In this document: positions 1-5,967 of the stretch, one piece after another
Numbering within the stretch: the first letter of the stretch is position 1
How the letters are laid out: the number at the start of each line of letters is the position of its first letter
From: a virus
Virus record (IMG/VR): IMGVR_UViG_3300027601_000030
Location: 1 to 22,362 of that record
Length of the DNA stretch: 22,362 nt
Reading direction: 5' to 3' (one strand)
Notes under the pieces: generated by a model
The model's database searches: none
Seen by the model: the letters and a program-made list of their open reading frames with translations, nothing else
What the model was told of the DNA's origin: nothing
Position numbers and translations under genes: made by a program

Positions 1-51
1 ATTCAAATTTCAAATTCAAATTTCAAAATCGAAAATCAAAATTCAAATTTG
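1..51. repeat. AT-rich 13-nt tandem repeat at window edge
   Basis: Two exact copies of ATTCAAATTTCAA lie head to tail at 1-13 and 14-26, followed by two degraded copies (27-39 and about 40-50). The stretch has almost no G or C. It can be read without stops in the frame of the gene that follows, so it may code for a low-complexity Asn/Ser/Ile/Gln segment, or it may be a non-coding AT-rich element such as an unwinding region. The window edge prevents a decision. Confidence 0.7.
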
Positions 52-198
52 GTTTTACCGAACGGGATTGATTTGGCAAATGAGGTTCTGGACCTGCGCG
101 ATCTGACCGAGCGGTATTGGCGCGTCATCCAAGCGCAACACGTCAGGATCGCTCGCCTCGAAAGCGACTTGCTATGTGCGAGGACTGCGAAGCCTTAG
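1..198 (+). CDS. C-terminal part of an unknown small protein (runs in from left edge)
   Basis: This frame is open from base 1 to a TAG at 196-198. After the low-complexity start, residues encoded from about 52 read like a real protein: LPNGIDLANEVLDLRDLTER, then an amphipathic helix with Trp, Arg and Leu that ends CARTAKP. No ATG lies in the frame; TTG at 49 or 73 are possible starts if the gene is complete here. The next gene starts inside its last 25 bases, a typical phage overlap. I do not recognise the family. The balanced, helical composition suggests coding, but the length and start cannot be settled from this window. Confidence 0.5.
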   Translation: MQISNSNFKIENQNSNLVLPNGIDLANEVLDLRDLTERYWRVIQAQHVRIARLESDLLCARTAKP

Positions 199-356
199 AA
201 GAGGAGACGGAGTTCTATGTGGCGGAGTGCGCCAAATGGAAGCAGATGTATGAACTAGCGCATAAGCGGGAACGGATGTTGGCGCGACAGCTCGCTACGC
301 TGCTCGAGAGCCTGCGCAGGGTAGCGCGAGAGGTGCGTGGAGTTGGGCGGAATTAG
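174..356 (+). CDS. Small acidic/basic coiled-coil protein, unknown function
   Basis: Sixty residues starting at ATG 174 (MCEDCEALEEE). A TTG at 117 would add a 19-residue basic stretch, but that part overlaps the better upstream frame, so ATG 174 is preferred. The protein is nearly all helix: an acidic N-terminus with a CxxC pair (C2, C5), then a Lys/Arg/Leu-rich coiled coil ending RGVGRN. The CxxC could bind a metal or be incidental. It is the last plus-strand gene before the terminator at 366-396, and its start overlaps the end of the preceding gene by 25 bases. I do not recognise the family. Confidence 0.6.
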   Translation: MCEDCEALEEETEFYVAECAKWKQMYELAHKRERMLARQLATLLESLRRVAREVRGVGRN

Positions 357-365
357 GGCAAAAGA

Positions 366-396
366 AAACCCCTAGGCGCGAAACCTAGGGGTTTTG
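366..396. terminator. Bidirectional intrinsic terminator between convergent genes
   Basis: A perfect 12-bp stem: AAAACCCCTAGG (366-377) pairs with CCTAGGGGTTTT (385-396) around the 7-nt loop CGCGAAA. The T-tract on one strand is mirrored by the A-tract on the other, so it can stop transcription from both sides. It sits exactly between the plus-strand gene ending at 356 and the minus-strand gene ending at 406, which are convergent. Confidence 0.9.
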
Positions 397-405
397 TGCT
401 GCGTA

Positions 406-1011
406 CTAGTGCAGGCGATAAGTTACCGTTTGAACGTCTTTAGACCAACAACGTCGGCAGTCGCCGCACTTGTTGCCTTGGCTAGGCGCTGGGCAGTCAC
501 CGCTTGTAGAGGACACCTCGCTAGTGGTCAGCCCTAGGCCATGCGCTAGGCTGTTTGGACCAGCTTTGTCGACCATATAGGCGGAGAGCCGGACCGTCAG
601 GTTAGGCGGAAAAGCGCCAAAGAGCTCAACGTATTCGCTGACGATGCCATACTCTTTGGTCGGCATCCAGAATTGGATGTCAGGCAAAGCAATGGCAATG
701 CGAACGATGGATTTGAGTGTTTTGAGGGATTGAAGGTCACCTGAGTCAAACCATCGAAAGAAGCCGCTTTTTTCCGTAGCGCGAATCTTGGCAATCATGG
801 CTGGAACCCATTCAGGGGAATCCATTAACGCGAGGCGCTGTTGCAAGGCGCGCTGGACGTTCGGCATGCGATAAAAACCAGACAAAGCGTAGCATCCATT
901 GCAAACGGAGCCAGCGACTTGCGCGAGTTTGCTGCCAGTCTTGCAAGCAAGAGCCGGAACAGACCAGCCTTGGCATGGCATTTTAGATGGTTGGGAAAGA
1001 GTTAGGTTCAT
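406..1011 (-). CDS. GP88-family phage protein (cysteine-rich, unknown biochemical role)
   Basis: A 201-residue protein with the signature of the phage 'gene product 88' family known from actinobacteriophages and many others. Four N-terminal cysteines (C13, C23, C37, C40) surround the segment CNGCYALSGFYRMPNVQRAL. The motif RWFDSGDLQS lies at residues 86-95. A second cysteine cluster (C173, C182, C185, C188) precedes the typical ending, TVTYRLH. The two cysteine sets suggest a metal or Fe-S site. Family members are often beside DNA-metabolism or accessory genes, but I know of no proven reaction. It is the last gene of the minus-strand operon, 47 bases after ardA, and ends at the shared terminator. 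Its leader carries the AAACACACTACAAA repeat and no Shine-Dalgarno. Confidence 0.85.
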   Translation of the reverse strand: MNLTLSQPSKMPCQGWSVPALACKTGSKLAQVAGSVCNGCYALSGFYRMPNVQRALQQRLALMDSPEWVPAMIAKIRATEKSGFFRWFDSGDLQSLKTLKSIVRIAIALPDIQFWMPTKEYGIVSEYVELFGAFPPNLTVRLSAYMVDKAGPNSLAHGLGLTTSEVSSTSGDCPAPSQGNKCGDCRRCWSKDVQTVTYRLH

Positions 1012-1022
1012 GGTGTTTTCTT

Positions 1023-1036
1023 TTTGTAGTGTGTTT
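1023..1036 (-). promoter_or_regulatory. Repeated A/C-rich leader motif, copy 1 (GP88 gene)
   Basis: On the minus strand this reads AAACACACTACAAA, 11 bases before the start codon of the GP88 gene. The same 13-14 bases precede the next two upstream genes at a similar distance. It replaces a Shine-Dalgarno sequence. Confidence 0.7.
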
Positions 1037-1058
1037 ATGGGTAAGGGTTAAACGTTTG

Positions 1059-1568
1059 TTAGTTGTTACGAAAAAACATTCCGCTGTGTTCGCAGTAGTC
1101 ATATCGCAGAGCGGATTGCCACACCGCGCGCCAGTCTATGCAATCGCGTAGGAAATCAGGGATTCCCGAGAGACACTCCGTTTCCTCGCAATGTTCCTCC
1201 GCAAAGTGCTCTACGTCGTCATATTCGCCAACGTAGGCGTCCTGAGCTTGTTCAAGCGTAGTTTCCTCAATCGAATAGCCTACAGCCTCCGCATAAGCCT
1301 CCCAAAGCTCGCGATCTCGCTCAGTGCATGCGATCCAATCCCAAAGCATCTGAGGCACAGAGCTTTCAGAGTAAAAGCCTTTTGGAAAGCCTTCAAAGTC
1401 CTGAAACATAAGCTCAGGATCTTGTTCATCTGCATGCAGTTCCAAGCATGCCTCACGAAATGAGTCTGCATCGTGCCCATCTAACTCGATCCAAGCGCCC
1501 TTGATTGAGCCGCTTGTGTATTTAGCGTATGTTCCGACGTATATTCTAGGTTCTGTTGTAGTTGTCAT
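1059..1568 (-). CDS. ardA: Antirestriction protein ArdA
   Basis: A 169-residue, strongly acidic protein that matches ArdA along its length: RIYVGTYAKYTSGSIKGAW near the N-terminus, ELHADEQDPELMFQDFEG around residues 43-60, AYVGEYDDVEHFAEE in the C-terminal half, and the typical ending MFFRNN. ArdA is usually about 165-170 residues and works as an elongated dimer that mimics about 40 bp of bent B-form DNA, binding and blocking Type I restriction enzymes. That mechanism is established for homologues, not shown here. The gene is the fifth of six on the minus strand, downstream of a 95-residue unknown gene and upstream of the GP88 gene. The leader has the same A/C-rich motif as its neighbours and no Shine-Dalgarno. 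The upstream gap has two mutually exclusive hairpins. Confidence 0.93.
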   Translation of the reverse strand: MTTTTEPRIYVGTYAKYTSGSIKGAWIELDGHDADSFREACLELHADEQDPELMFQDFEGFPKGFYSESSVPQMLWDWIACTERDRELWEAYAEAVGYSIEETTLEQAQDAYVGEYDDVEHFAEEHCEETECLSGIPDFLRDCIDWRAVWQSALRYDYCEHSGMFFRNN

Positions 1569-1576
1569 ATGTTTTG

Positions 1577-1590
1577 TTTGTAGTGTGTTT
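1577..1590 (-). promoter_or_regulatory. Repeated A/C-rich leader motif, copy 2 (ardA)
   Basis: AAACACACTACAAA on the minus strand, identical over 14 bases to the copy at 1023-1036, and 8 bases before the ardA start codon. Confidence 0.7.
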
Positions 1591-1605
1591 AAGCGGAGCG
1601 TCTTT

Positions 1606-1646
1606 GCTCCCTACTGGCCACCCCGCAGGATGACCAGTGTGGGAGC
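1606..1646 (-). promoter_or_regulatory. Hairpin in the leader between the 95-aa gene and ardA
   Basis: GCTCCC (1606-1611) pairs with GGGAGC (1641-1646), and ACTGG (1613-1617) pairs with CCAGT (1634-1638). The same GCTCC (1606-1610) can instead pair with GGAGC at 1595-1599 around a 6-nt loop. In the minus-strand transcript these are two competing hairpins in the ardA leader. Neither is followed directly by a U-run, so attenuation is only one possibility; an mRNA processing or stability element is another. Confidence 0.45.
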
Positions 1647-1934
1647 CTAGGCTTGCGCTGTAATCTGATTGGCGATTGGTTGCACTCGATCGATCAGCTT
1701 GCTAGGCACTGGCTTGTCGGTGTCAACGTAGCGTAAGTGTGCTTTATATTTGTGCCCGCGAGCCGTTTGCAGACTGCGACCCCAGCCGCAATAGGTGGCA
1801 CGCACGGTGCGACCATCTAATGTGCCCTCAAGGCCCTGCCAACCATGCACAGCAGCGCGCACAGCAGAGTGGACGTAAGTTACACCGTACCAGCGGGTTT
1901 CTCGGACGTATGGGAGTAAGTTGAGTATTGTCAT
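1647..1934 (-). CDS. Unknown 95-residue phage protein
   Basis: A 95-residue protein starting at ATG 1934. It is rich in aromatic and basic residues: residues 10-33 contain RETRWYGVTYVHSAVRAA, then GWQGLEGTLDGRTVRATYCG and a basic patch with HKYKAH. The beta-strand/turn pattern suggests a small globular fold. No catalytic motif, signal peptide or membrane segment is visible and I do not recognise the family. It is the fourth gene of the minus-strand operon, immediately before ardA, so a role as an accessory or anti-defence protein is reasonable by position only. The leader carries the repeated TTTGTAGTGTGTT motif (1945-1957 as read on the plus strand). Confidence 0.7.
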   Translation of the reverse strand: MTILNLLPYVRETRWYGVTYVHSAVRAAVHGWQGLEGTLDGRTVRATYCGWGRSLQTARGHKYKAHLRYVDTDKPVPSKLIDRVQPIANQITAQA

Positions 1935-1944
1935 ATGTTGCTTT

Positions 1945-1957
1945 TTTGTAGTGTGTT
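1945..1957 (-). promoter_or_regulatory. Repeated A/C-rich leader motif, copy 3 (95-aa gene)
   Basis: AACACACTACAAA on the minus strand, 13 of 14 bases shared with the copies before ardA and the GP88 gene, and 10 bases before the start codon at 1934. Confidence 0.7.
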
Positions 1958-1969
1958 AGGTTGGTTGGT

Positions 1970-2101
1970 TTACTTGCGAGCGTCTTTAAGTGCTGCTAGC
2001 CATAGCGTTGCGGTTAGCAGCAAGCACCCCGCAGCCATAAGCTGAAGGGAGAGACGGACGTAGGCGATGTGTTCGAGTGTGTTCATGGTGTCGGTGGTCA
2101 T
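1970..2101 (-). CDS. Small single-pass membrane protein, 43 aa
   Basis: Reading the minus strand from ATG 2101 gives MTTDTMNTLEHIAYVRLSLQ, followed by a hydrophobic stretch (LMAAGCLLLTATLWLAAL) and a basic end (KDARK). A second in-frame ATG at 2086 would give 38 residues. The hydrophobic helix with positive residues after it suggests an inner-membrane protein. It follows the upstream gene by only 4 bases, so it is likely co-translated. No family is recognised. Tiny membrane proteins beside ardA could be superinfection-exclusion or accessory factors, but that is position-based speculation. Confidence 0.6.
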   Translation of the reverse strand: MTTDTMNTLEHIAYVRLSLQLMAAGCLLLTATLWLAALKDARK

Positions 2102-2105
2102 AAGG

Positions 2106-2252
2106 TTAAGCGGTAATTTCTTCAAGTTGAGCATATAAGCGGGTTAACACCTCCGTGCATTCCCCCACTGAGTTTCCCCATTGATTAGCCTCCGCTTCCC
2201 ACAGGTCAGACTCCCACTGCGCAATCAACGTAAGTAGTTCTGTTTTATTCAT
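2106..2252 (-). CDS. Small acidic helical protein, 48 aa
   Basis: Starts at ATG 2252 and reads MNKTELLTLIAQWESDLWEA, then an acidic helix ending LYAQLEEITA with a TAA at 2106-2108. It is a soluble, acidic, helical microprotein with three Trp residues. It is flanked on both sides by 4-base gaps to other small genes in the same direction, which strongly supports real coding in a compact operon. The function is unknown. Acidic microproteins in phage accessory operons are sometimes DNA mimics or protein inhibitors, but nothing in the sequence proves this. Confidence 0.65.
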   Translation of the reverse strand: MNKTELLTLIAQWESDLWEAEANQWGNSVGECTEVLTRLYAQLEEITA

Positions 2253-2256
2253 ATAC

Positions 2257-2400
2257 TTATGCGAGGTTGAGTTCTGCGCGGATGTTGCGCAGCGCGTAGC
2301 GCAGGTTGCTATAGCGCGTTACATTGCGCTTTGTTGCAGCGCGTTCTGCGCGGATTAGATTGAGAGTTTCGGTTAGTTGAGTGAGTAGGATTGCTTTCAC
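2257..2400 (-). CDS. Small basic helical protein, 47 aa (start uncertain)
   Basis: The frame ends at a TAA at 2257-2259, 4 bases before the next start codon. From GTG 2400 the product is 47 residues: VKAILLTQLTETLNLIRAER, then AATKRNVTRYSNLRYALRNI and RAELNLA. It is an Arg-rich amphipathic helix, possibly nucleic-acid binding. A TTG at 2457 would add 19 residues encoded by a pyrimidine-rich tract and seems less likely. A seven-codon reading frame (ATG 2420 to TGA 2397-2399) ends in an overlap with the GTG start, so it may couple translation. It is the first gene of the minus-strand operon. I do not recognise the family. Confidence 0.5.
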   Translation of the reverse strand: MKAILLTQLTETLNLIRAERAATKRNVTRYSNLRYALRNIRAELNLA

Positions 2401-2692
2401 GAGAGCGAAACTAGGCGCATGCTGATACGATTGCAACAAAAAAGAAAAGAAAAGCAATGTGCCTGGTGAGTGTGTGCTAGCTTGGTGAGTGCACGAGTGG
2501 CGTGACTGTGGGACGGTGCGTGCGTGCGTGCGGCGAGAGAGAGCGTGAGCTAGTGCAAGTGAGTTGCAATAGCGTTAGGGAAATGCGTTACAGCCCCCGC
2601 GACACATGAGACGACCGCGCGCGCCTCCGGCCACCCCTCGCAGCGCACGCTCAACGTCCCATCGGCACGTCAAAAGCGAGCCCGCCGACCAT

Positions 2693-2722
2693 CAAACGGA
2701 CCACCCCTGCACCTGCCGTTTG
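2693..2722. repeat. Inverted repeat, 7-bp stem
   Basis: CAAACGG (2693-2699) and CCGTTTG (2716-2722) form a perfect stem around a 16-nt C-rich loop. It is in the non-coding divergent region. Confidence 0.55.
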
Positions 2723-2967
2723 GACGACCCTTGCAAGCGGCTACGGCTGAGCAGGTTGGCCATAACACAATACAACACATATCATATAGAGTGCGGTTTT
2801 ACTCTGTTGAAATGCATTTTGACGCTGCGAAACCGGCGACAGGGGGGGGCGGGGGTCGAGCCTGGTATTTTGGCGGAGACTTTGACGCATAGCCCCCCTC
2901 AGATTTTTTATTTGCAACTGGCCCTTCGCGCTTGCCCTACACCTGTAGCTTGGCCTACGGTTGCGAG

Positions 2968-2997
2968 TGCTACCGTTGTGTAGAAGCTGCGGTAGCA
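2968..2997. repeat. Inverted repeat, 8-bp stem
   Basis: TGCTACCG (2968-2975) pairs exactly with CGGTAGCA (2990-2997) around a 14-nt loop; a G-T pair can extend it. No T-run follows on either strand, so it is not a simple terminator. Confidence 0.6.
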
Positions 2998-3162
2998 TGG
3001 CAGCGCGGGTGCATGTTGTGCCACCGGGTGTAGTTCAGTGTGTTCTGTGGGGATCATGCTAAGCGGAGTGCCCGGTTAGCTGGCCCTTGTTGGGCGTAAG
3101 CTTGCGCTGCCTATTCCCCTTTCTTGCATACTACACCGTGCTAGTGTAACGTCGTTTGTACT

Positions 3163-3564
3163 ATGACCAAGTACACACTAAGCGAGAAGACGGTTAAAGA
3201 GCACCTGGGTGCAACGTATAGGCCACTAGCGTACAAGCTGGGGGAAGATTATATTGAGCGTAAGTGCTTTAAGAGCTTTAAGCGCATTTATAGGAGTGAC
3301 CTATTGGATGGCACGTTGCGCGTGGAGGAGACGGCTGAGCCTGTCACCGTGGAAGACTGGCGTGCTAAGGTAACGCCTGTGCCGGAACCACAGCAGTTGT
3401 CGGTAAGTGATGAGGCAACGGAACAGACGATTATCATGCTTTATCCCAATAGTCGGTGGGTAAAGACAAACGTGGAGGATAAGGTGTTTGTGGGGACTCG
3501 CGGATTTAACTTTCGTAAGGGGCAAAAGATCCGCGTTAAGAACAAGACCATATGCATAAAGTGA
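3163..3564 (+). CDS. Unknown 133-residue protein
   Basis: Starts at ATG 3163 (MTKYTLSEKTVKEHLGATYR) and ends at 3564. The N-terminal third is basic and helical, the middle is acidic and Pro-rich (residues about 58-90), and the C-terminal 40 residues are basic and beta-like (YPNSRWVKTNVEDKVFVGTR, then KGQKIRVKNKTICIK), as in a small nucleic-acid-binding barrel. I do not recognise the family. It occupies the place where a small terminase subunit could be expected, two genes before terL, but shows no clear TerS helix-turn-helix, so I do not assign it. There is no good Shine-Dalgarno. The next gene starts inside its last 13 bases. Confidence 0.75.
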   Translation: MTKYTLSEKTVKEHLGATYRPLAYKLGEDYIERKCFKSFKRIYRSDLLDGTLRVEETAEPVTVEDWRAKVTPVPEPQQLSVSDEATEQTIIMLYPNSRWVKTNVEDKVFVGTRGFNFRKGQKIRVKNKTICIK

Positions 3565-3755
3565 CGCTTAAGCAGAAGATTGACGCTTATAACAAGCTTG
3601 AGCAGCTTAAGGCCAAGCTTAAGTCACTTATGTACGCACTAAGCGCAGGTTATGTTCTTCATCTTGCGCTTAAGTGGTGCTTAAGCCTAGTGAACGCGCA
3701 AGAGATGCAGCTTAACACGTTTGAGTTGGCTATACTGTGGATTATCTGTTCTTAA
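3552..3755 (+). CDS. Small helical, probably membrane-associated protein, 67 aa
   Basis: Starts at ATG 3552, overlapping the previous gene by 13 bases in another frame, and ends at TAA 3753-3755. The first 27 residues are a Lys/Leu coiled coil (KQKIDAYNKLEQLKAKLKSL). Two hydrophobic stretches follow (MYALSAGYVLHLALKWCLSL and FELAILWIICS). This shape is compatible with a holin-like or membrane-anchored protein, but a lysis cassette lies far downstream. It is unusually rich in the palindrome CTTAAG, four times in frame as Leu-Lys. Its stop codon lies inside the first stem of the structured region that follows. Function unknown. Confidence 0.65.
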   Translation: MHKVTLKQKIDAYNKLEQLKAKLKSLMYALSAGYVLHLALKWCLSLVNAQEMQLNTFELAILWIICS

Positions 3756-3917
3756 GCTAGAGCTTACTTCTTACTGCGCAGTTAAAGTTAAGCTTTATCT
3801 TGCACTCTAGCTTCGTGTTGCCGTTCGCACTAGGCTTCGCCCAGATGCTCACTCTCGCAGCTAACGCTGCTCACTGGAGGTAGATTAACAATCCGGCAAG
3901 GAGAGTTGCGAGTGAGC

Positions 3918-3966
3918 ATAGTACCCCCAAGACTCAGCATTACTGCCTATCTTGGGGGAGTACTAT
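3918..3966 (+). repeat. Strong 15-bp hairpin in the terL upstream region
   Basis: Bases 3918-3932 (ATAGTACCCCCAAGA) pair completely with 3950-3966, with one 2-nt bulge (AG, 3959-3960) and a 17-nt loop. It is followed by ACAAAAAGGAGATC, a perfect-looking Shine-Dalgarno core with no usable start codon at the right distance. No U-run follows, so it is not a classic terminator. Confidence 0.75.
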
Positions 3967-4116
3967 ACAAAAAGGAGATCAACGATCCGTATAAGTGTCG
4001 TCGTTCGTTTCGCAATTACAGTCGTGAGTGATGGCTACCCGTTCGGGAAACTCTTGGCATTCTCGTAGCCGTGACTGTCAGTACTCTGCAACTTTGAGGC
4101 CGATGCAGATGTTTAA

Positions 4117-4155
4117 TCCAACTCAAGGGGCGATAGTTGGAACCATTTAATCGCC
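4117..4155 (+). other. H-type pseudoknot candidate
   Basis: Stem 1 is TCCAACT (4117-4123) with AGTTGGA (4135-4141). Stem 2 is GGCGAT (4129-4134) with ATCGCC (4150-4155). The order of strands is interlocked (1, 2, 1', 2') with loops of 5, 0 and 8 nt, the classic geometry that lets the two stems stack. G4128 and T4156 can add a wobble pair. Confidence 0.6.
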
Positions 4156-4165
4156 TGTGCGTCCG

Positions 4166-4252
4166 ATGTTTCAGGTGGTGCAGAGGGTACACGGTCGCCT
4201 ATTTGACGACACTGGAAATTTAGAGCATCTTCAGGGAAAGTCAACACTATGA
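4166..4252 (+). CDS. Possible 28-residue leader peptide overlapping the terL start
   Basis: ATG 4166 opens a frame reading MFQVVQRVHGRLFDDTGNLE and ending at a TGA (4250-4252) that overlaps the terL start as CTATGA. A GTG at 4157 would add three residues. The overlap is typical of translational coupling, and the composition is plausible for a protein, but the frame is short and sits beside a structured region. A separate frame at 4031-4150 (39 codons) is less convincing because it crosses the hairpins. No family is recognised. Confidence 0.3.
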   Translation: MFQVVQRVHGRLFDDTGNLEHLQGKSTL

Positions 4253-5967
4253 ATGAAGAAAATAAGGAAATTATCGAGAAAGTTTTAGCCTACAAGCTGG
4301 AGGAACATCCGACTCTACCGGCACCCAATAAGCGGCAGCGGCTCGAGATGATCGAGAACATTGGCCCAGAGAAGGTCCTTGATCTGTTCCTTATGCGGGA
4401 GAACAAGATTAAGGCTGAACAGAACGATCCTATGCGCTATGGCCACGAGCTGCCGCACTGGCCGGATGCGGACAAGCTGCTCGATCGTTTTAACGAGATC
4501 GTCGTCCTTGGTGGCAACCGCTCTGGTAAGACTGAGTACGCCGCCAAACGGATGGCTCAAGCTTTTGTGGGGACTGATCTTAATGGGCAAGCGCCGTCTT
4601 GGGTAAAGGAACGCTATGCTAAGCGTAACATCCGCATCTGGTGCTTTCATACTAACCATATGACAAGCGTGTCAGCACAGCAGAACGTATTCTATAAATA
4701 CCTTCCGCCAGAGATTCGCAACATCAAACGTACTAATCATACGCAAATTAGTTTTAGCCAGAAGAATGGATTTAGTGACAATACGGCGGTGTACATGGGT
4801 AACCAGATCTGGTTCCTTAACTATGCCCAGGATATTAAGGTGGTTGAAGGTGGTGAGGTGGACTACGTCTGGTGCGATGAACTTGTCCCGCAGAACTGGC
4901 TCGATACCCTCCGCTACCGTCTGGTTACCCGGTCCGGCAAGCTAATCGTCACTTTTACCCCAGTGCAAGGGTACACCCAGGTCGTGAAGGAGTACATCAA
5001 TAGCGCCAAGGTTACGGCTACCCGCAAATCTCCATTATTACCCAATAACAATGTTCTAACGGTTCCTAAAGGCGAGATGCCCTACCAGGCTGAGAACTTG
5101 TATGGTAGACATGCCTGCATCTGGTATCATACGGAACTTAACCCGTACAACAATTGGGAGCGCATGAAGCAGGAGTTGTCTGGCCGCTCTAGCCATGACA
5201 TTAAGATCCGCGCTTATGGTTGGGCCGATCAGACGGCTGGCTCCGAATTCCCAATGTTTGGTGACCATAACATATGGAAAGGTGACGCGGAAGAGGTTAT
5301 TCCTGACGGGAGCAACTACATGGCGGTAGATCCGGCAGGTGCTCGAAACTGGTTTATGCTCTGGGGAAGAGTAGATAAGTACGGTATACTATGGGTCTAC
5401 CGTGAATGGCCGGACCAAAGCTATGGGGAATGGGCTTTGGCTAGCGACAAGGCTGATGGACGAGCTGGACCGGCACAGAAGGCTGGTGCTGGCCGTGGGG
5501 TAAACGAGTATACTGAGCTTATCTGGAGCCTAGAAACGGCTGGAGACAAGCGTGAGATGATCGTGGACCGTTGGATTGATCCTAGGACCGCTGGCACAGA
5601 GACAATCACCAAAGATGGCGGCGTTACAGTGCTGGATTTGCTGTATCAGGCTGATAATCCGCTTATATTTACGCCGTCAGCCGCCTTGCCAATTGAGGAG
5701 CGTGTGATGATTATCAATGATCTTTTGTCATGGAATATAGAAAATCCAATGGTAAAAGGTACAAATCATCCAAAACTTATGATTCACGAGTCTTGTCAGA
5801 ACTTAATATACAGCCTAAAGGAATGGACTGGACAAGATGGACAAAAAGGTGCTAGTAAAGATCCAATTGACGCCTTAGGGTATATGGTGGTAATGCAGCC
5901 ACAATATTTTGGAGGCGAACAATGGGAAAAGCAAGTTAAGCAAATGGCTAAATGCGGTTCCTATTAA
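4249..5967 (+). CDS. terL: Terminase large subunit (TerL)
   Basis: A 572-residue DNA-packaging motor with both domains. ATPase: Walker A GGNRSGKT at residues 88-95 after a beta strand (EIVVLG), and Walker B EVDYVWCDEL with the D210-E211 pair. Nuclease (RNase H-like): D361 in MAVDPAG, D444 in DRWIDPRTAG, and D538/D541 in SKDPIDALGYM near the C-terminus, the expected three acidic positions. TerL docks on the portal, hydrolyses ATP to pump DNA into the prohead and cuts the concatemer. The length is usual for podoviruses. The start at ATG 4249 overlaps a small upstream frame and has only a weak AGGGAAAG upstream. The portal gene follows after 14 bases. No clear small terminase gene is seen beside it. 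Confidence 0.95.
   Translation: MNEENKEIIEKVLAYKLEEHPTLPAPNKRQRLEMIENIGPEKVLDLFLMRENKIKAEQNDPMRYGHELPHWPDADKLLDRFNEIVVLGGNRSGKTEYAAKRMAQAFVGTDLNGQAPSWVKERYAKRNIRIWCFHTNHMTSVSAQQNVFYKYLPPEIRNIKRTNHTQISFSQKNGFSDNTAVYMGNQIWFLNYAQDIKVVEGGEVDYVWCDELVPQNWLDTLRYRLVTRSGKLIVTFTPVQGYTQVVKEYINSAKVTATRKSPLLPNNNVLTVPKGEMPYQAENLYGRHACIWYHTELNPYNNWERMKQELSGRSSHDIKIRAYGWADQTAGSEFPMFGDHNIWKGDAEEVIPDGSNYMAVDPAGARNWFMLWGRVDKYGILWVYREWPDQSYGEWALASDKADGRAGPAQKAGAGRGVNEYTELIWSLETAGDKREMIVDRWIDPRTAGTETITKDGGVTVLDLLYQADNPLIFTPSAALPIEERVMIINDLLSWNIENPMVKGTNHPKLMIHESCQNLIYSLKEWTGQDGQKGASKDPIDALGYMVVMQPQYFGGEQWEKQVKQMAKCGSY

Follow-up and report, generated by a model that had tools for sequence, protein, structure and literature searches.

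A start-associated sequence element and a structured intercistronic RNA at the gene junctions of a phage accessory operon containing ardA

The window analysed here is the whole 22,362-base virus record IMGVR_UViG_3300027601_000030, from a phage with a capsid gene of the SU10 type (SU10_MCP, PF17236, 137.2 bits in Pfam); its proteins also gave a portal match under the cut-off and a terminase match to Terminase_6N. The accessory genes form one operon, with a single promoter and bounded by a terminator, in which the order is promoter, genes for proteins of 47, 48, 43 and 95 amino acids (aa), ArdA, a 201-aa protein of family PF17338, terminator (Table 1). As protein content this gene list is ordinary, save for the small proteins of no known family. 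The main finding lies at the junctions between the genes, which hold a short start-associated element, forming a leader without a Shine-Dalgarno (SD) core, together with a bistable intercistronic RNA that seems not to have been catalogued. An earlier note on this DNA had placed the genes on the minus strand, and all of them were found at or very near the positions it gave; the two gaps that it described between the three smallest genes, from the 47- to the 48-aa and from the 48- to the 43-aa gene, are indeed of 4 bases each. Its operon end, 2457, is an upstream TTG and had to be revised: since the promoter occupies about 2406-2439, the 47-aa gene most likely starts at the GTG at 2400. The closing hairpin at 358-402 was not listed by a terminator pattern scan.

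Table 1. Features of the operon. Positions refer to the window; nt, nucleotides; pI, isoelectric point; P1, P2 and P3 are the stems of the structured RNA.
Feature	Position	Strand	Remarks
Operon promoter, Bacteroidota sigmaA type	2406..2439	-	TTGTTG-N20-TAGTTTCG, variant of TTG...TAnnTTTG, immediately 5' of the first gene
47-aa basic protein, GTG start, pI 11.3	2257..2400	-	relatives: L399, 87%; partial in L102, 58% over 36 aa
48-aa acidic protein, pI 4.05	2106..2252	-	single relative, L399, 83%
43-aa hydrophobic protein, core gene of the operon	1970..2101	-	17 distinct variants; in 37/37 related loci
Start-associated element AACACACTACAAA	1945..1957	-	10 nt 5' of the ATG of the 95-aa gene
95-aa basic protein, without known family or fold	1647..1934	-	protein searches, relatives, structure search
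Intercistronic structured RNA	1577..1651	-	overlaps the TAG stop (1649-1647) of the 95-aa gene
RNA stems	P1 1646-1641 with 1611-1606; P2 1637-1628 with 1623-1614; alternative P3 1610-1606 with 1599-1595	-	mapped from alignment columns
Start-associated element AACACACTACAAA	1577..1589	-	8 nt 5' of the ardA ATG; 3' end of the RNA
ArdA anti-restriction protein (PF07275), 169 aa	1059..1568	-	Pfam, fold, charge
Start-associated element AACACACTACAAA	1023..1035	-	11 nt 5' of the ATG of the 201-aa gene
GP88-family protein (PF17338), 201 aa	406..1011	-	Pfam
Terminator-like hairpin closing the operon, T-rich 3' side	358..402	-	-23.2 kcal/mol

The element is 13 nt long and reads (A)ACACACTACAAA, with a 12-nt core, ACACACTACAAA; it is rich in A and C and has no SD core. 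With up to 2 mismatches, 4 matches were found in the window, compared to a mean of 0.83 in shuffled sequences, 2/100 of which reach 4. The evidence from the window alone is modest, and it is the relatives that carry the case. Across 17 distinct operons (444 kb including flanks; L004, the same as the window, was dropped) the exact core was counted 21 times, and all 21 copies lie inside the operon and on the operon strand. An ATG opening an open reading frame (ORF) of at least 40 aa lies 0-11 nt downstream of 20 of the 21 copies, and the remaining one, in G014, overlaps its ATG. Within the same operons there are 6 further copies with one mismatch, each followed by an ATG. For five control words, exact occurrences numbered 0, 0, 0, 1 and 0 and one-mismatch occurrences 2, 2, 4, 6 and 1; with one of these words, two one-mismatch matches precede an ATG, one of them in an operon. 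A scan of 45 related records, some of which are near-duplicates, detected 21 exact copies in 14 of them and no copy of a reversed control word.

When one mismatch is allowed, the element is found 120-240 nt after the start of the 43-aa gene in 32 of 34 distinct operons (obtained from 38 by dropping identical copies), with 1-4 copies per operon. The genes behind it are of about nine kinds, as judged by their N-termini. Other leaders of the operons do not contain the element, and many of them are still A/C-rich and G-poor. Scans of viral contigs for the element followed by ATG, and for its reverse complement followed by ATG, were not taken as evidence, as chance seems dominant among the matches listed. 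Among the papers listed by searches of the open-access literature, made for the element itself and for similar sequences between genes or in shared leaders, none describes the element or the RNA. As a separate observation, AT-rich repeats of type CAAATTTCAAATTC are located at positions 1-50 of the window, the start of the contig; similar AT-rich stretches, ending in AAGCAAAACCAAAACCAAAACACAT, precede several genes and make up a second A/C-rich leader type, that of the 95/124-aa leaders in the relatives.

Upstream of the ardA copy of the element stands a hairpin, which recurs in relatives before other genes. A first covariance model, built from 7 copies, led to more distant ones, and a scan anchored on the gene divergent from the operon added more, for a total of 47 hits, 38 of them distinct. 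Four copies (L112, L014, L015 and L069) scored weakly with the first model (E values 0.05-0.93) and strongly with the second (E 1e-8 or better). All the copies kept share the strand of the operon, an antisense echo of the copy in the window having been discarded, and 37/38 stand before an ATG that opens an ORF of 40 aa or more. Judged by inspection of N-termini, the genes behind the RNA appear to be of about a dozen kinds.

In the 34 aligned copies 99.3% of the 537 cells of P1 and P2 are paired, against 83.6% in shuffled alignments and 45-55% with slid partners. Two-sided changes affect 12 of the 16 pairs, 0/500 shuffles gave figures as high, and the compensatory changes are visible in the raw letters of the copies. 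Since G-U pairs are frequent in both P1 and P2, a structure formed by RNA, rather than DNA, is favoured. Copies reach at least 40 bits with model R2, whereas all other matches stay at 19 bits or less; the background consisted of 79 viral contigs, selected not at random but because they contain the element word, of which 78 remain at or below 19 bits, and the 79th, L211, is itself a contig of the group, identical with L415. As a rule the RNA is present once per operon, with two copies in L083 and L102. The R2 search of 18 records, some of which were covered in slices, detected it in 9; for G033 and G015 the end of the operon falls outside the slices, and other loci of those contigs (L463 and L029) hold it. 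Comparison with Rfam gave no match up to E 1 for window positions 1-4300; for L083, L102 and L028 the only match was to a miRNA model (E 0.56), located in L102 at a different site and on the opposite strand. The intercistronic RNA is apparently uncatalogued. Its structure and placement are well supported by computation; its function we infer.

The 3' strand of P1 may alternatively pair with the segment just downstream, to form P3, which shares this strand with P1, so that the two stems are mutually exclusive. Watson-Crick P3 stems of 5 pairs are formed in 30/36 copies with their own tails, in 59/574 combinations with cross-class tails and in 139/10,800 with shuffled tails. The set used for this count was obtained by removing the antisense window hit and the truncated L108 and by adding L014, L069 and L112, though not L015, by hand. 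An earlier search, based on the alignment and with identical copies dropped, had given 32/35 for own, 205/492 for swapped and 150/7000 for shuffled tails, the antisense hit being one of the three misses. A first automatic search (11/38 own, 72/1190 swapped, 90/3800 shuffled) was replaced, as it mis-assigned P1 in many copies.

The hairpin is located at the end of the upstream reading frame. The stop codon lies 0 nt before P1 in 17/36 copies and at 0-8 nt in 30/36; in the remaining six, all belonging to the GTTTCC class, it is 11-15 nt off, where P1 extends outward. Open frames of at least 28 codons were considered, and L423 and L028 gave no value. Readthrough at the TAG was evaluated and rejected, as another in-frame stop follows after 11 codons in the window. 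No T-run was found after P3 in the RNA copies inspected, and an intrinsic terminator at P3 was rejected on this ground. The average predicted accessibility of the start region is 0.82 unmasked and 0.86 when the ribosome is simulated by masking.

The promoter was analysed in the regions upstream of a divergent 133-aa gene, 53 of which were kept out of 64 after dropping short or identical ones, the 64 being those given for 79 loci. The two boxes expected for a Bacteroidota sigmaA promoter, TTG (-33) and TAnnTTTG (-7), were found strictly and at the right spacing, as TTG-N18-21-TAnnTTTG, on the operon strand of 23/53 regions, compared to 5 on the opposite strand and to a mean of 0.92, with a maximum of 5, in Markov shuffles. 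The 23 copies look like one homologous family, which ends with a C-rich CGT, followed by the first start codon or leader. The window promoter, TAGTTTCG, is one base off in the -7 box; it lies outside the 23 and fits the consensus only approximately. The promoter consensus given for Flavobacterium johnsoniae is TTTG/TANNTTTG (PMC6847099). The same source describes for this organism a phylum without SD sequences, in which upstream A residues and low structure favour initiation (PMC6847099). Within the phage group, an SD core precedes 10.4% of 415 conserved genes starting with ATG, against 8.9% in shuffled controls (range 6.3-12.3%), and no SD signal is thus seen. Because SD signals are absent and the promoter is of Bacteroidota type, the host probably belongs to the Bacteroidota. 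To our knowledge, translation start without SD pairing has been little studied in phages of this phylum. Just upstream of the divergent 133-aa gene, an inverted repeat GCTACAC-n-GTGTAGC is present in at least G001, and imperfectly in the window (3120-3163); it is a possible operator or hairpin.

These elements may be combined in an explanation of the operon junctions as translation insulators coupled to ribosome landing sites, to which we assign a probability of about 0.45. Most cassette starts in this lineage have an A/C-rich, G-poor leader, in many cases with the fixed core (A)ACACACTACAAA, and the element or leader would most likely act as the site at which ribosomes land in a host not using SD pairing. 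The long P1/P2 hairpin is expected to form immediately behind the upstream stop codon. A terminating ribosome would cover the 5' arm of P1, thus freeing the 3' arm, which could then pair downstream as P3; in either state a hairpin would stand upstream of the leader, leaving leader and start codon open. Such a hairpin would discourage ribosomes from being carried over and would uncouple the downstream gene from upstream translation, while the open leader would itself recruit ribosomes, so that ArdA, the PF17338 protein and the other genes in the slot would be made at the rate set by their own leaders. An arrangement of this kind would suit a slot where different genes are exchanged. In a review, structure directly downstream of the upstream stop is reported to correlate with weaker coupling (PMC12548453). 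The RNA structure, the positions of stop and start codons and the predicted accessibility are supported computationally; the step performed by the ribosome is one we infer. A wider claim, that the RNA represents a new class of bistable intercistronic RNA, working as a portable translation insulator which, together with the SD-free element, permits accessory and counter-defence genes to be swapped without retuning of expression, is less likely than not.

Several observations weigh against the insulator explanation. In the set of 17 operons and flanks, 8 one-mismatch copies of the element lie outside operons, 3 of them before an ATG, and 31/45 related records have no exact copy. The P1/P2 alignment was fitted to the structure model, which favours the figures derived from it. 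If G-U pairs are allowed, P3 forms in 35/36 copies with their own tails, in 259/574 with cross-class and in 573/10,800 with shuffled tails, the cross-class pairing rising because the classes differ by few bases, which G-U pairs can bridge; only the Watson-Crick count separates P3 well, and 26/36 copies belong to one class. In one copy (L423) a change breaks both P1 and P3. The P1/P2 fold is far more stable (-25.5 to -31.5 kcal/mol) than P3 by itself (about -9 kcal/mol), and P3 consequently needs the ribosome or another trigger; with further copies included, the energies computed over the full stretch range from -23.1 to -40.2 kcal/mol. The stop codons used for the distances are the ends of the longest open frames near the RNA, not of annotated genes; moreover, the conserved sequence of most copies includes the TAG, whose position is therefore not an independent trait. 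The start region is open in both states, and the folds alone imply no on/off effect. Regarding the host, it is mostly phages of Proteobacteria that, among named phages, hold the nearest relatives of the capsid and GP88 proteins, and a search of genome contigs by capsid protein found no relative and no host record. Finally, the RNA is found in 20/34 distinct operons, usually once, whereas a general insulator would be expected at every junction.

This last point speaks somewhat for two alternatives, RNase III processing and a translation-sensing switch, which explain nearly as much as the insulator. In the former, RNase III or another nuclease would cut P1/P2, and the freed 3' arm of P1 would refold as P3, shielding the 5' end newly created on the ardA messenger. 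An intergenic hairpin of 16 pairs, a P3 built on the strand that a cut would free and a single copy per operon as a rule, as expected of a cut site, are all in keeping with processing, which has nonetheless no need for the closeness to the upstream stop seen in 30/36 copies; on balance it is somewhat unlikely. In the latter, a ribosome at the stop codon would toggle P1 to P3 and alter downstream expression, by way, for instance, of Rho loading on the C-rich, G-poor leader or of reinitiation. Strand sharing with covariation and a stop codon at the 5' arm of P1 reproduce the geometry of translation-controlled attenuators, and mutually exclusive hairpins are found both by computed pairing and by covariation; a terminator hairpin with a U-run is not found in the copies inspected, the start codon is sequestered in neither fold and the terminator scan detected none, although that scan also missed the 358-402 hairpin. 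Such a switch appears unlikely.

The conserved sequences might instead be recombination joints at gene borders, serving cassette exchange with no role in expression, as suggested by the tail of the 43-aa gene, which runs into different genes at the element. Joints of this kind need neither a position before ATG, nor a single orientation, nor a stem with two-sided changes and frequent G-U pairs; cassette exchange could be a by-product, and we hold this possibility to be improbable. Being sequence-specific, upstream of genes and in one orientation, the 13-nt element also has the traits of a promoter, for a phage RNA polymerase or a sigma factor, before each gene. Its spacing of -1 to 11 nt from the ATG would, however, place the start from a -10-like box inside some genes, and a conserved operon promoter already exists upstream; on these two grounds the element was rejected as a -10 box or phage promoter, and a promoter role is very improbable.

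Among the genes served by the junctions, ArdA is the best defined. It matches PF07275 with 83.3 bits (cut-off 27) and PHROG 2059, anti-restriction protein, with E 3.9e-24. The structural model (predicted local distance difference test score, pLDDT, 83.5) has as its best match in the PDB 2w82_A, 'The structure of ArdA' (E 2.1e-4, template modelling scores 0.63/0.65), and the protein is acidic (pI 4.15; 38 Asp and Glu versus 11 Lys and Arg among 169 residues). These data confirm the identification made in the earlier note. The sequence is 31.6-32.6% identical to those of the six phage records found, four of which are from Cellulophaga phages (two phages with two records each, 32.0-32.6%). ArdA proteins are established as DNA mimics that block Type I restriction, and by analogy this one presumably acts in the same way. 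The gene at 406-1011, which the earlier note had left unnamed, belongs to PF17338 (GP88), with 94.1 bits against a cut-off of 24.4. A 266-aa protein, found in the equivalent slot in relatives, matches PF17338 as well (154.2 bits). The 201- and 266-aa forms are distant and occupy one slot, behind the 43-aa gene; the 201-aa form found no match in the four records that carry the longer one (G009, G012, G025, G028).

To compare gene content among relatives, the window proteins were run by tblastn (E up to 0.01) against 37 loci anchored on p133, duplicates included. All 37 contain the 43-aa gene, whereas the 201-aa form of GP88 was detected in 22, the 95-aa gene in 9, ardA in 3 and the 47- and 48-aa genes in 1 each. 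Full relatives of the latter two occur, in the loci searched, only in L399, where ArdA was not found. What follows the 43-aa gene varies, and includes ArdA, PF17338 proteins of 201 or 266 aa, the 95/124-aa protein and many small unknowns: the distal genes of the operon are interchangeable cassettes. A nucleotide search of phages gave no match.

For the four small proteins no Pfam match above cut-off and nothing under E 0.03 in PHROGs was obtained, the 43- and 47-aa ones having been searched as the longer ORFs 1970-2134 and 2257-2457; the absence of a recognised family, as described in the earlier note, was thus borne out in these databases. The same holds for the membrane protein and the acidic microprotein that it had mentioned: the 43-aa product has a grand average of hydropathy of 0.52 and, in our reading, probably a single membrane span, and the 48-aa product is the acidic one. 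The small ORFs are genuine genes, more than chance frames, as that note had assumed. For the 43-aa gene the proportion of replacement changes is lower than that of silent ones (pN < pS) in 136/136 pairs of the 17 distinct variants. The 47- and 48-aa genes are kept together in L399, with silent changes in excess of replacement ones (9.5 vs 5.5 and 22.5 vs 9.5, respectively), and relatives of the 95-aa protein, 60-100% identical, were detected in 27 contigs (L012 at 100%), 18 of which were aligned with the window copy. The 48-aa protein gave no alignment with residues 1-60 of the protein, 64 aa long, that is encoded in the first slot of G029. The model of the 95-aa protein matches two uncharacterised viral proteins with E < 0.001, and the structure search revealed no solved structure under E 0.6. 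In 5/10 grouped relatives (e.g. G012 and G009) this protein is 123-124 aa long. The longer relatives carry a cysteine-rich C-terminal tail, missing from the window copy, and the copies of the gene in L034 and L036 have stop codons inside the matched range.

The earlier note had further proposed that the small genes serve counter-defence or superinfection exclusion. They do share one operon with ArdA, and nothing beyond this position came to support such a role. The association with ardA, which it had suggested to look for elsewhere, is weak in the 37 loci, and the counter-defence inference is consequently not strengthened. No PADLOC model matches any of the six operon proteins, which says little, as PADLOC covers defence and not counter-defence. 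An accessory, possibly counter-defence, operon is the natural reading of a modular set including ArdA. The element provides a sequence handle on this changeable operon with its known anti-restriction gene, and by this association the other cassettes become a defined list of counter-defence candidates. If the insulator reading is true, shared leaders could be used to find unknown counter-defence genes.

Two further observations were made in the same records. On the plus strand, convergent to the operon, window positions 175-354 are conserved in 11/19 related records (45-65% when translated, in a frame with stops in the window), and probably represent either a small gene read in a different frame or a stretch of conserved DNA. 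The gene for the terminase large subunit is split at about residues 92-106 in G023, G009 and G028 (L140, L149, L177) by insertions of approximately 345, 370 and 920 bases, which look like introns or homing-endonuclease insertions.

Known systems resemble the operon in different respects. ArdA itself is like the family (PF07275; 2w82) in Pfam score, fold, acidity and length, with no notable difference. Close to the left end of the record of Rhizobium phage Pasto (MT708545.1, 1319-1956), an ArdA-like gene is immediately preceded by one for a membrane protein of 34 aa with a single span, which parallels the 43-aa gene before ArdA in G001 and G003; Pasto differs in being a member of the Autographiviridae with annotated ribosome binding sites, and model R2 found no match in the stretch searched (L475). 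Intergenic RNase III sites split the early mRNA of T7, and attenuators use mutually exclusive pairings controlled by the ribosome. The RNA is similar to both in placing a hairpin between genes of one transcript, and differs in that it has no T-run, a start open in both folds and no match in Rfam. Among the establishment genes described for plasmids p576 and pLS20, an anti-restriction gene is linked with other accessory genes through an upstream sequence that they have in common, as is the case here; those sequences precede genes or operons and are associated with transient expression once the plasmid has entered (PMC8708921), whereas the present ones recur within one operon and look post-transcriptional.

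The closest precedent are the Start-Associated Sequences (SAS) of cluster K mycobacteriophages, described as a 13-bp asymmetric repeat, a few nt before the starts, mostly ATG, of non-structural genes of different families and nearly always in one orientation; about half of them have an inverted repeat just upstream (ESAS), and their function is given there as unproven (PMC3203893). The two systems share a short repeat, in one orientation, just before the starts of different non-structural genes. The SAS consensus, GGGATAGGAGCCC, contains an SD core, while the element (A)ACACACTACAAA does not: the latter is alike but not a member. According to the same description, the inverted repeats of ESAS do not support RNA pairing, and SAS are found in 11-19 copies over half a genome (PMC3203893). 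The present structure, by contrast, covaries as RNA, can adopt two folds and begins at the stop codon upstream, and the element is found in 1-4 copies in one operon. The operon thus provides, beside the cluster K mycobacteriophages, a second, independent case of unexplained start-associated repeats.

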